Assembly (NCBI GenBank): GCA_026987955.1
Contig: JALSME010000026.1
Span: forward strand, 1 to 38,405
Direction of reading: 5' to 3'
From: Sulfurospirillum sp.
GTDB lineage: Bacteria; Campylobacterota; Campylobacteria; Campylobacterales; Sulfurospirillaceae
DNA: 38,405 bases
This document shows positions 5,473-38,405 of the stretch, piece by piece; within the stretch, counting starts at the first letter, position 1; every line of letters begins with the position of its first letter. The notes under the pieces were generated by a model. The model was not told the DNA's origin and made no database searches. It worked only from the letters and a program-made list of their open reading frames with translations. The position numbers and the translations under genes are program-made.

Positions 5473-5574
5473 AAGCTTTCTCAAAGAGAGTGATTTACTT
5501 AAGTAAACCGCTTTGCTTCACAGGAGTGAGAGGAATTTTTACTGGGCTTTGCTCAGTAAAAAGGAGACAATAAA
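5473..5574 (+). promoter_or_regulatory. Two-hairpin leader element before selD
   Basis: The segment just before selD contains GTGAGAGGAATTTTT, then a hairpin ACTGGGC-TTT-GCTCAGT (5541-5557), then AAGGAGACAATAAA and the ATG at 5575. The same arrangement, with the same distance from Shine-Dalgarno to ATG, precedes rpmJ (23192) and is repeated at the window's right end. Upstream lie AAGCTT, a short TCTC-AAA-GAGA stem (5479-5489) and a 14-bp palindrome (5494-5507). A control or RBS-presenting role is inference. Confidence 0.6.
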
Positions 5575-6609
5575 ATGAACAATAGTAGTAAATTGACAAA
5601 GTTTGTCAAGGCTGCTGGATGAGCCGCTAAACTAGCTCCGGGTGAGCTATCACATGCACTTGGCGAGCTTAAAAGTAGCAATGATAATCTTATTATAGGA
5701 ATGGAAGCATCAAATGAAGATGCAAGTGTATATAGGCTAGATGATGAAAGAGCATTGGTCCAAACTGTAGACTACATAACACCCGTAGTGGATGATCCAT
5801 ATATTTATGGTCAAATTGCAGCAGCAAACTCTTTGAGTGATGTTTTTGCCATGGGTGCAGATGTAGCAACAGCACTCAATCTTGTAGGATTTGATGGATG
5901 TAATCACAAAGCAGAAGTACTCAATGAGATTTTACAAGGTGGACTTTCAAAGGTACAAGAGTGTGGTGGGATTATTGTTGGTGGACACACTATAGAGACT
6001 CCAGAGATGACATATGGACTTAGTGTTGCTGGTTTTGTGCATCCTAAAAAGATATATAGGAACAATACACCACGAGTTGGTGATGTTTTGATTTTAACAA
6101 AACCTATAGGCATGGGAGTGTTAACAACTGGTATAAAAGCAGATATGCTTGATGCTAAGGCTGTAGAGAAAACAGCAGATATACTTGCTCAACTAAACTA
6201 TAAAGCATCTTTGATTATGCGTGATTTTGATGTTAGTGCTTGCACGGATGTGACTGGATTTGGTTTAGCAGGACACGCCTATGAGATGAGTGGAAAAAAC
6301 TTTACAATAGAGTTTGATTTTAACTCAATCCCAATCATAAGCGAGGCAATAGAGCTTGCCAATATGGGAATAATCCCAGCAGGGACATATGCAAACCAAG
6401 AGTATGTATCTCTACATGTAGAGGTTAAAAAAGAGTACCAAAATGAGATATTTTTCTACGATGCACAGACTTCAGGCGGACTTTTGATAGCGGTAAAAGA
6501 GAGTGATACAATAGGACTAGTAAAAAGGCTGAAAGATGCTGGTTATGAGTATAGTAGCATAGTAGCAGTATTAAAAGAATTTAGTGGAACAAGTTTAGTA
6601 TTGAGATAA
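5575..6609 (+). CDS. selD: Selenide, water dikinase SelD, a selenoprotein with in-frame UGA
   Basis: SelD makes selenophosphate from selenide and ATP for Sec-tRNA synthesis. The frame runs from ATG 5575 through a TGA at 5620-5622 (codon 16) to the stop at 6607-6609, giving 344 residues, close to E. coli SelD (347). The TGA sits exactly where SelD has its catalytic Cys or Sec, after VKAAG and before AAKLAPGEL. Downstream motifs fit the family: QTVDYITPVVDDPY, the SLSDVFAMGA segment, GGHTIETPE and TDVTGFGLAGHA. Standard gene callers would start at ATG 5701 and lose 42 residues. A hairpin begins 10 bases after the UGA. It follows yedF. Confidence 0.96.
5620..5649 (+). promoter_or_regulatory. Sec UGA codon and bacterial SECIS-like hairpin in selD
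   Basis: After the UGA (5620-5622) and a 10-base spacer comes a perfect 6-bp stem, TAGCTC (5633-5638) with GAGCTA (5644-5649), capped by the five-base loop CGGGT. Spacer length, short upper stem and a GGU-containing loop match known bacterial SECIS elements read by SelB. Confidence 0.8.
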
Positions 6610-23074: not shown

Positions 23075-23191
23075 CTTCGCAAAGCGAAAGCTTCAGTGAG
23101 AGGAGCTATTAAATTAGTTTCTTCTTCGCAAAGCGAAAGCTTCAGTGAGAGGAATTTTTCTGGGCTTTGCCCAGCAAAAGGAGACATTAAA
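23075..23191 (+). promoter_or_regulatory. Two-hairpin leader element before rpmJ, with a 30-base direct repeat
   Basis: A 30-base segment (23075-23104) holding the hairpin TTCGC-AAA-GCGAA is repeated exactly at 23124-23153. The second copy runs into a perfect hairpin CTGGGC-TTT-GCCCAG (23160-23174), AAAGGAGACATTAAA and the rpmJ ATG. It matches the selD leader and the right-edge repeat in layout and spacing. The AAA and TTT loops, with neighbours, are complementary and could pair with each other. Confidence 0.65.
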
Positions 23192-23305
23192 ATGAAAGTA
23201 CGACCTTCTGTAAAGAAGATGTGTGATAAGTGCAAAGTGATTAAGCGTAAAGGTATCGTTAGAATCATTTGTGAAAATCCAAAACACAAACAGAGACAAG
23301 GATAA
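23192..23305 (+). CDS. rpmJ: 50S ribosomal protein L36
   Basis: L36 is the smallest 50S protein, here 37 aa with zinc ligands C11, C14, C27 and H32 (the C+ form). The sequence begins [21 protein letters not shown] chose ATG 23192, eight bases after AAGGAG. The frame is open upstream to 23030, but that extension runs through the repeated hairpin leader and would not be L36. rpsM follows after two bases. Confidence 0.96.
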
Positions 23306-35982: not shown

Positions 35983-36040
35983 TTTTATGGTATTATTGTA
36001 AATTGTGACATTTATTATGGTAATACCAGAGGAGTTAGTT

Positions 36041-37087
36041 ATGATAAAAGAGTTAGTACCAAATTTTAAAAAAGATTCTAGGCAACTTATTGCTTCAAAA
36101 TCTATTACTTTGTTTGGACTAGGCGTTACTCTCTTTTTTACAATGTATAGCTATTTTTTTAACAATAGTATACTTTTATATGTAGATTTGTTTTTATTGT
36201 TATTGCTTTTTATAACAACTTTAATTATGAAAAAAAGAAATATATATCTACTTGGAAAGATTGCACTAATCATTATGCTTGCTGGAGTTTTTATTCTTAT
36301 TTATGCAAACAATGGAATGGGTTTAGTTTTCGCATGGTCTTTTATTGCTACAAAATTTATAATAATTATATTTGGTTATAAAAGAGGACTTATTTATTCC
36401 TTTTTATTTAATATAGCTATTTTTGTATTGATGTATAAATATATAGGCGAAGCTATAACATCTAGTGGTTATGTAAGATTTATTAGTATATCAATAACCT
36501 TAACAATTATAGCATTTGCATATGAATACTCTATCGATAATACAATAAAAAGACTTCATAAAATACAGGCTAATTTAGAAGAGACTATAAAAATCGATAG
36601 TTTAACTAATATTTTCAATAGAAGGTACTTTGATACTATATTTCCGCAGCAGATAAAAATATCAAAAAGAAACAACAAGTATTTAGCTCTTACTATGATA
36701 GATATTGATAACTTTAAAAGTTACAATGATACCTATGGGCATCAAGCAGGTGATGAGGTTTTAAAGTCGGTTGCCCAATCCTTTAAAAGCTCCTTAAAAA
36801 GACCAGATGACTATGTCTTTAGACTCGGAGGCGAAGAGTTTGGAGTGCTTTATCAACTAAATAAAAAAGAAAATGCTTTAGTAGTGGCTAATAAAATATG
36901 TAAAAATATAGAGAGATTAAAAATAGCTCATAGTGAAAATAGTGTCTCACCTTTTGTAACTGTATCAATTGGAGTACATATTGTAAAACCACAAGATAAA
37001 CATGATTGTGATGATATTTACAAGATAGCAGATGATGCACTATATGTTGCAAAACAAAATGGTAAAAATAGAGTAGAAGAGCTCTAA
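36041..37087 (+). CDS. Membrane-bound diguanylate cyclase (GGDEF domain)
   Basis: The enzyme makes c-di-GMP from two GTP. The 348-aa protein has five or six membrane segments (about 20-175) and a C-terminal GGDEF domain (about 190-348) with an intact active site, GGEEF at 263-267. Six residues before it an RxxD inhibitory site (R254-D257) is present, so product inhibition is expected. I chose ATG 36041, six bases after GAGGAG; an in-frame GTG at 36005 would add 12 residues without a ribosome-binding site. It has the opposite activity to the HD-GYP protein at 7676. Confidence 0.92.
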   Translation: MIKELVPNFKKDSRQLIASKSITLFGLGVTLFFTMYSYFFNNSILLYVDLFLLLLLFITTLIMKKRNIYLLGKIALIIMLAGVFILIYANNGMGLVFAWSFIATKFIIIIFGYKRGLIYSFLFNIAIFVLMYKYIGEAITSSGYVRFISISITLTIIAFAYEYSIDNTIKRLHKIQANLEETIKIDSLTNIFNRRYFDTIFPQQIKISKRNNKYLALTMIDIDNFKSYNDTYGHQAGDEVLKSVAQSFKSSLKRPDDYVFRLGGEEFGVLYQLNKKENALVVANKICKNIERLKIAHSENSVSPFVTVSIGVHIVKPQDKHDCDDIYKIADDALYVAKQNGKNRVEEL

Positions 37088-37099
37088 GGGCACCTCTAA
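37087..37099. repeat. 13-base repeat shared with the remnant at 10956
   Basis: AGGGCACCTCTAA is the exact reverse complement of 10956-10968. It begins in the stop codon of the GGDEF gene. It may be the end of an old insertion element; on its own it is short enough to be chance. Confidence 0.35.
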
Positions 37100-37102
37100 G
37101 TT

Positions 37103-37129
37103 ATTTTTAGATAAAATAAGTCTAAAAAT
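37103..37129 (+). promoter_or_regulatory. Hairpin or operator overlapping a -10 before the aminotransferase gene
   Basis: ATTTTTAGA (37103-37111) and TCTAAAAAT (37121-37129) form a perfect 9-bp dyad. Its 9-base centre contains TAAAAT (37112-37117), a fair -10 placed 29 bases before the ATG at 37147. It could be an operator or a terminator of the GGDEF gene. Confidence 0.35.
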
Positions 37130-37146
37130 TTATTATAGGGTTATAT

Positions 37147-38250
37147 ATGTTACTTCTTACTCCTGGACCGACACCAGTCCCTGAAGATATACGCATGGCA
37201 ATGAGTGAGCCAACAATTCACCACAGAACTCCAGAATTTGAAGAAATTTTTGGTAAGACAAGAGTGCTTTTAAAAGAGCTTTTTAATATGCCAGAGGTTC
37301 TTATGCTAGCAAGTAGTGGCACAGGGGCTATGGAAGCATGTGTCTTAAATCTATGTCATGCTAAAGCACTTACGATTAACTCCGGCAAGTTTGGCGAGAG
37401 ATTTGGTAAAATTTGTGAATCTTACGGAAAAGATTATACTGAGTTAAAACAAGATTGGGATACACCTGCAAGTGTTGAAGATGTAGTAGATACAGTTAAA
37501 AACGATGACAAGATAGATGCAGTTTTTATCCAAGTTTGTGAGAGTGCAGGCGGACTTCGTCATCCTGTTGAAGATATAGCAAAAGAGATAAAAAAGATAC
37601 GACCAAATATCATGGTTATAGCTGATGGTATTACAGCAGTTGGTGTTGAAAAAGTAGATACAGCAAATATTGATGCACTCATAAGTGGAAGTCAAAAGGC
37701 TTTAATGCTCCCTCCTGGGCTTGCTTTGATTGGGTTAAGTAATCAGGCTGTAGAAATTATAGAAAAAAGTGGAGTAGGCTACTACTTGAACTTAAAAACT
37801 GAACTTAAAGCACAAAAAAAGAATACAACGGCATATACAGCGGCAACTACTCTTATAATTGGGCTTAAAGCAATGCTAGAGAAACTACATGCTGATGGTT
37901 TTGACAAACTTTATAGCGATACAAAAAAGCGCTCATTTGCAACAAAGAGAGCACTCGAAGCATTAGGTTTAAAAATCTTTCCAAAATCACCAGCAGATGC
38001 TATGAGTGCTGTTTATGATGAGGATGCAGCAAAAATAAGAAAGATTTTAAAAACAAAATATAGAGTAAATATAGCAGGCGGACAAGACCATGTTAAAACT
38101 ACACTTTTTAGGATAAACCATATGGGTTTAGTTCATGACTATGAAACAGCATGGACACTAAATGCAATCGAAATGGCACTTGAAGAGATAGGAAGACGAC
38201 CATATGATGGAACTGCAAATGCAGTCTTTACAAAAGAGATAACAAAATGA
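37147..38250 (+). CDS. Class V PLP-dependent aminotransferase
   Basis: The 367-aa enzyme belongs to the alanine-glyoxylate/serine-pyruvate group of class V aminotransferases. It opens LLTPGPTPVPEDIRMAM and has MLASSGTGAMEACVLNL, the PLP aspartate in VIADGITAVG and the Schiff-base lysine at about K184 in SGSQKALMLPPG. RINHMG lies near the C-terminus. Such proteins are often called soluble hydrogenase 42-kDa subunit in databases, a misleading name. The donor and acceptor cannot be read from sequence. Its TGA overlaps the first ATG of the 80-bp tandem repeat. Confidence 0.9.
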   Translation: MLLLTPGPTPVPEDIRMAMSEPTIHHRTPEFEEIFGKTRVLLKELFNMPEVLMLASSGTGAMEACVLNLCHAKALTINSGKFGERFGKICESYGKDYTELKQDWDTPASVEDVVDTVKNDDKIDAVFIQVCESAGGLRHPVEDIAKEIKKIRPNIMVIADGITAVGVEKVDTANIDALISGSQKALMLPPGLALIGLSNQAVEIIEKSGVGYYLNLKTELKAQKKNTTAYTAATTLIIGLKAMLEKLHADGFDKLYSDTKKRSFATKRALEALGLKIFPKSPADAMSAVYDEDAAKIRKILKTKYRVNIAGGQDHVKTTLFRINHMGLVHDYETAWTLNAIEMALEEIGRRPYDGTANAVFTKEITK

Positions 38251-38405
38251 AACACTCTATGCAAAGCATAAGCTTTAGTCGCGAGGAATTTATCTCGGAC
38301 TTGTTCGAGTTAAAGGGGACAATAATATGAAATATTCTATGCAAAGCATAAGCTTTAGTCGCGAGGAATTTATCTCGGACTTGTTCGAGTTAAAGGGGAC
38401 AATAA
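38247..38405 (+). repeat. 80-bp tandem repeat carrying the two-hairpin leader and a start codon
   Basis: Unit 1 (38247-38326) and unit 2 (38327 to the window end) match at 77 of 79 bases. Each has hairpin TATGC-AAA-GCATA, AAGCTTTAGT, GAGGAATTT, hairpin CTCGGA-CTTG-TTCGAG and AAAGGGGACAATAA, eight bases before an ATG. Unit 1 also encodes a possible 27-codon ORF (38247-38330) whose ends are ATGA overlaps with its neighbours. The gene that follows lies beyond the window. Confidence 0.75.

Follow-up and report, generated by a model that had tools for sequence, protein, structure and literature searches.

Several small mobile repeats with reading frames have been described, among them RPE, ERIC, YPAL and Correia (PMC2229807). 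The Rickettsia palindromic elements (RPE) are small, structured and remain readable, occurring in genes for proteins and, for the class as a whole, also in genes for RNAs; they insert in frame within ORFs and thereby lengthen the protein (PMC2229807). ERIC, YPAL/RU-2 and Correia/NEMIS are likewise small, dispersed and structured operon repeats with empty and filled sites, some of them with reading frames; they have terminal inverted repeats and mostly TA-type target duplications, and no start-codon specificity has been described for them (PMC2229807). REPs with their RAYT (TnpA-REP) genes are short dispersed palindromes in many copies, extragenic, often in inverted pairs and marked by GTAG tags (PMC3733652). 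In addition, translational coupling at NTGA junctions is known, the ATGA overlap being the commonest spacing of co-oriented genes (PMC12548453).

The repeat analysed here shares traits with each of these systems and differs from each in its position and ends. In contrast to RPE, it lies between genes at start codons, any of the three frames may be the one used across its core, and it rebuilds a Shine-Dalgarno sequence (SD), a stop and a start. It appears to lack one long inverted repeat as in MITE-like elements and ends in SD plus ATG, and, unlike REPs, it has two different hairpins per unit and occurs sense-only at ATG with no RAYT link, although RAYT genes are present in the source genome. 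Its ATGA overlaps are those of NTGA coupling, with the difference that an apparently mobile repeat places a coding mini-ORF between the gene pair, rebuilds the overlap at both ends and is repeated in arrays. In the open literature, a scope outside which most subscription papers lie, we found no description of a start-codon-targeting repeat that keeps a stop-start relay.

The window (the whole stretch of DNA analysed, 38,405 nucleotides) is the entire contig C26 of a Sulfurospirillum genome of 1.97 Mb in 143 contigs. Two 80-bp units lie at its right end (Table 1), the second represented by 79 of its 80 bases where the contig ends, and over these 79 bases they differ by two C/T mismatches (38253 and 38255 versus 38333 and 38335). 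TRF returned a period of 80, 2.0 copies and a 97% match (score 304), with just one other array in the window (score 58). The first ATG (38247) is overlapped by the TGA stop of the aminotransferase gene (38248–38250), and the 27-codon ORF that it opens closes on a TGA overlapping the second ATG (38327); sequence and TRF thus bear out the near-identical tandem units and ATGA chaining described in an earlier note on this DNA, as well as its observation that the window ends inside the second unit. Contig C27 opens within the same repeat, with 48 bp and two full units followed by hisZ and purA, and the adjacency of the aminotransferase gene and hisZ in relatives supports a join of the two contigs, which very probably meet across the array. 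Extension of the contig, as the note had suggested, in this way very probably gives an array of at least four units with hisZ as the downstream gene, a count that is a lower bound because identical units collapse in assembly. Many contig ends of this genome lie in or beside the element (C26/C27, C123/C124, C142/C143, C55/C56, C47, C98 and C114), indicating that element arrays are a main cause of the fragmentation of this assembly and that their lengths are underestimated.

Table 1. Features of the window, with positions counted from its first base.
Feature	Position	Strand	Evidence and remarks
Class-V aminotransferase, upstream gene	37147–38250	+	ORF list; Pfam PF00266, E = 8.6e-14; in relatives, adjoins hisZ with no insert
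Element unit 1, 80 bp from ATG to ATG	38247–38326	+	TRF; 87.8 bits with covariance model R1
Element unit 2, 79 of 80 bp	38327–38405	+	Sequence and covariance model; array very probably goes on in C27, where two or more further units precede hisZ
27-codon mini-ORF MKHSMQSISFSREEFISDLFELKGTII, TGA stop overlapping the second ATG	38247–38330	+	Sequence; family-wide open-frame test
Hairpin 1 of unit 1 (ATGC AAA GCAT)	38259–38269	+	By eye in this copy; in the commoner subtype, 56 of 58 distinct forms pair fully at the corresponding hairpin
Conserved linker AAGCTTTAGTCGCGAGGAATTT	38270–38291	+	Columns invariant across 14 aligned copies of the source genome
Hairpin 2; inner stem CTCGGAC/GTTCGAG at 38294–38309	38289–38314	+	Covarying pairs among 104 distinct copies
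Shine-Dalgarno AAAGGGG, 8 nt before the second ATG	38312–38318	+	Sequence; same position in other copies
Further element copy before selD	5488–5577	+	R1, 69.0 bits
Further element copy before rpmJ; partial copy just upstream	23112–23194	+	R1, 57.1 bits

The unit belongs to a dispersed family. A DNA search matched 22 places in the source genome, and a covariance model built from 14 copies gave 44 matches, two more of them in the window; relatives in the Sulfurospirillaceae contain up to 108 copies, and Sulfurospirillum arcachonense DSM 9755 contains 58. A strict scan matched 36 of 347 Campylobacterota genomes, in five families, and 271 distinct units were collected by profile search. Nearly all copies are co-oriented with the following gene, whose SD and ATG form the end of the element. 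The genes after copies include hisZ, nadC, nuoG, frdA/sdhA, selB, apt, leuA, oorC, parA, ugd, fliJ and flgG, among others, most of these names being what we take the proteins to be from their sequences. Of the 271 units, 153 have their right end at the start codon of an ORF with 60 or more codons and 34 at the ATG of a following unit, and the left ATG is absent from many copies. The copy at argF is common to several genera of the family (nine loci), indicating that some copies are old and have been retained. Downstream of the first copy in the window, a selD-like gene (5575–6609) has an in-frame TGA at codon 16 (5620–5622) that probably encodes selenocysteine; the listed ORF begins too late, at 5701, and the frame with TGA read as Sec contains AIRS domains.

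Eight junctions (hisZ, nadC, nuoG, frdA, selB, apt, leuA and oorC) lack the element in some or all of the relatives examined. The empty junctions at hisZ, nadC, nuoG, frdA, selB and oorC read ...ATGA without insert, and the filled ones have exact ATG junctions, which argues for entry precisely at the start codon. The hisZ site is empty in four species, with overlaps resembling ...ATGATAGA, and reads ...ACAAAATG/AAACAC...GACAATAAAATG/ATAGACG in the source genome. The idea of an expandable array, raised in the earlier note, gains from these comparisons, as hisZ has no copy in relatives versus at least four here, and frdA has one unit in genome G004 versus three here; copies at leuA also occur in two further genomes (G001 and G012), and the one at nuoG is also found in G004. 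The note's tandem duplication is borne out, but the unit is not a native leader copied locally: it is a dispersed element at dozens of start codons with empty sites in relatives, which the window by itself does not reveal. ATG stands on both sides of the insert, and the match beyond it averaged 1.92 bases versus 1.48 by chance (P = 0.0006); this slight excess likeness of the bases after the left ATG to the start of the gene itself makes a short target duplication possible. One locus of the source genome (C5:10539–10625) has a near-duplicate of about 20 bp (AAGCATTAAAAAA.TAGG.TAG) in both flanks, longer than the ATG shared elsewhere.

We propose that the repeat is probably a tandemly amplified, non-autonomous dispersed mobile element of about 80–83 bp, found in Sulfurospirillaceae and other Campylobacterota, that inserts at start-codon ATGs and serves as a relay that ribosomes can pass. 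Insertion would take place exactly at the start ATG, often at the ATGA overlap of two operon genes; the TGA stop of the upstream gene is kept because the insert begins with A, and the downstream start because the insert closes with its own Shine-Dalgarno sequence and ATG. The old ATG then opens a mini-ORF of 26–28 codons, free of stops through the element and ending at, or at most about 4 nt from, the new ATG, so that a ribosome leaving the first gene could restart, cross each unit and pass to the second. With more reserve, we lean towards regarding the family as a class of mobile element, hitherto undescribed, with start codons as its targets: it would rebuild SD and ATG, end in stops for each of the three frames and be under selection for readability in whichever frame it lands, so that operons stay coupled while arrays grow. 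The element looks like a ribosome-friendly genomic parasite or regulator, and its near-harmlessness may best be read as a consequence of transparency to ribosomes. That array length tunes hisZ expression would be a further guess.

The behaviour of the mini-ORF across the family bears directly on this proposal. Among 97 non-redundant units bounded by ATG on both sides, the frame of the left ATG was open to the right ATG in 87, compared with 17.0 ± 3.8 for shuffled interiors, leaving about a tenth with a broken mini-ORF, and a stop fell within −9 to +6 of the new ATG in 83, the arrangement expected of coupled genes, in which an upstream stop overlaps or neighbours the next start. Unit length is mostly 80 or 83, that is 2 modulo 3, which sets the mini-ORF stop on the TGA of the ATGA; at other lengths, the stop is mostly a TAA at −3 or −4. 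With the conserved core used as a ruler, the copies occupy all three phases, and the used frame was stop-free in 24/27, 46/50 and 12/15 units of the respective phase classes (82/92 in total), the unused frames in 50/184; the observed value was reached 0 times in 20,000 permutations of the phase labels and the result persisted after thinning to 36 very divergent units, although the copies are related by descent and tests of this kind are therefore not fully independent. The position of the TAA agreed with the frame (P = 9 × 10−4), and where the second codon of the gene does not start with A, ruling out TGA, the units mostly belong to another length class (P = 0.007). In 80 control units without a left ATG, a phase was open over the right half in 53% of cases on average; where a left ATG is present, the own frame was open there in 94 of 104 units. 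Furthermore, the stop of the upstream gene lay within −15 to +4 of the left ATG in 52 of 82 first units, forming exactly ATGA in 23. That the own frame is stop-free whichever of the three phases the core is read in argues for selection on openness rather than on a peptide, and a conserved small protein was rejected on the same ground, the core being read in three frames. Selection has thus kept inserts passable for ribosomes in any frame, with a stop at the new start and no conserved peptide. A relay would predict precisely such selection, and the translation-coupling relay suggested in the earlier note draws strong support from this family-wide pattern, from which we infer termination and reinitiation at the junctions.

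The unit is also conserved in structure. Over 104 distinct copies, hairpin 2 had 94.9% paired cells and 251 double-sided changes, with a covariation score of 0.562 compared with 0.202 for shuffled and at most 0.170 for slid alignments, and in the commoner subtype the number of fully paired forms of hairpin 1 (56 of 58) exceeded a shuffled maximum of 42. The linker between the hairpins, GCTT.AGT...AGGAATTT, is nearly invariant among the 14 aligned copies of the source genome. The minimum-energy fold of the window copy differs from the covarying hairpin and is of modest stability (z = −1.3); the hairpin is therefore assigned on the strength of the family rather than of its own energy. No Rfam match at gathering score was obtained for window positions 36000–38405, and inspection of the aligned units revealed no long terminal inverted repeat. 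The alignments likewise contained no constant GTAG/CGTC tag at the foot of a stem and no tagged palindrome of 20–40 bp such as defines REPs, the unit being 80 bp long with two unlike hairpins.

Other explanations for these patterns were weighed against the relay. The open frame would be predicted equally well if the repeat were mobile and its mini-ORF were kept open just against Rho-dependent polarity, with no relay and a downstream gene that starts independently from the strong SD of the element: untranslated inserts of 80–400 nt in operons would stop transcription, so that stop-free copies survive. That RNA left untranslated is subject to Rho polarity is well established (PMC12548453), and the element does bring a good SD, yet polarity avoidance accounts for openness and not for stop placement; a stop exactly at the new ATG, dependent on frame and second codon, is superfluous for avoiding polarity and counts against this reading, which we regard as possible if doubtful. 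The covarying hairpins and nearly invariant linker, together with the sense orientation throughout and the argF copies common to several genera, could instead mark a host regulatory RNA, a structured leader copied to many operons and read by a protein or the ribosome, thereby coordinating housekeeping translation. Mobility may equally require structure, however, close relatives differ in their occupied sites, the downstream genes have no common theme and copies are also found within RNase P RNA and before rRNA; we hold such a leader to be unlikely. An assembly artefact, named in the earlier note as the case that would overturn it, or a purely local slippage duplication of a native hisZ leader would suit a contig that ends in a repeat of almost identical units. 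Either is very improbable and was refuted as the sole explanation by the dozens of copies scattered over the genome and by orthologous sites that are empty; moreover, arrays occur in the isolate genome of S. arcachonense DSM 9755 and in a single-contig genome (G009).

With respect to the way of moving, the two hairpins near the ends and the strand-specific entry beside a fixed short sequence (ATG) resemble single-strand transposition, a resemblance only. A RAYT/IS200-type transposase (Y1, HUH) could mobilise the element in trans in single-stranded form, as with REPs or PATEs, and the source genome does have Y1 transposase genes. However, Y1 gene counts do not track copies across genomes (49 copies without any Y1 gene in G002, a Y1 gene without any copy in G016), and a clear copy was present in the flanks of just 1 of 32 Y1 loci; we think this route improbable. 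RAYT/Y1 was rejected as the mobiliser, the three genes of the source genome showing no link to copies and no correlation. No reverse transcriptase was found in the source genome or in three other element-rich genomes (G002, S. arcachonense and G012), reverse transcriptase counts likewise did not follow copy number, and no mobilising enzyme emerged among the Y1 and reverse transcriptase families examined. Plasmids yielded no copy and viral contigs no exact core pattern, and carriage by plasmids or phages was rejected on these grounds.

If the start-codon relay is correct, it would show how a repeat may spread, without breaking genes, through the tightest parts of compact genomes, namely overlaps within operons and the borders of genes for 16S, 23S and RNase P RNA. 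Its junctions would form a natural series (empty, one, three and at least four units) for measuring termination-reinitiation, polarity and spacing, and openness of the mini-ORF without selection on its peptide would be clear evidence, at the genomic level, for the importance of ribosome passage itself between genes.

Copies at RNA genes extend the range of sites. In several Sulfurospirillum genomes (five loci) a copy lies within RNase P RNA; at five empty sites, the position is occupied in relatives by a short hairpin, CTACC-TAGAATTTTTCTA-GGAAAAGG, which we take to be helix P12. RNase P RNA was not found in the source genome, which is about 99% complete, and may fall in an assembly gap. Copies lie directly before 16S rRNA in S. 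arcachonense, in G022 and in the more distant G348 and G371 (two families), and directly before 23S rRNA in S. arcachonense. The right end of the copies at RNA genes is again ATG, here not a start codon, in S. arcachonense and in the majority of the RNase P RNAs. Six rRNA-adjacent loci were recorded in total, and a role of these copies in rRNA processing is conceivable.

Some members depart from the chained arrangement, and these, like the broken mini-ORFs, the copies without a left ATG and the differing minimum-energy fold, count against the proposed reading. Arrays without an ATG between units were seen at six loci in G002, G010 and G009, and in these the start codon comes from the last unit only. 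At seven loci, a subfamily with AGTAGAGCGTGAATT and/or AAGATGAC replacing the SD occupies upstream positions in the arrays of another genus of the family, and this subfamily seems to have lost the ribosome-binding function.
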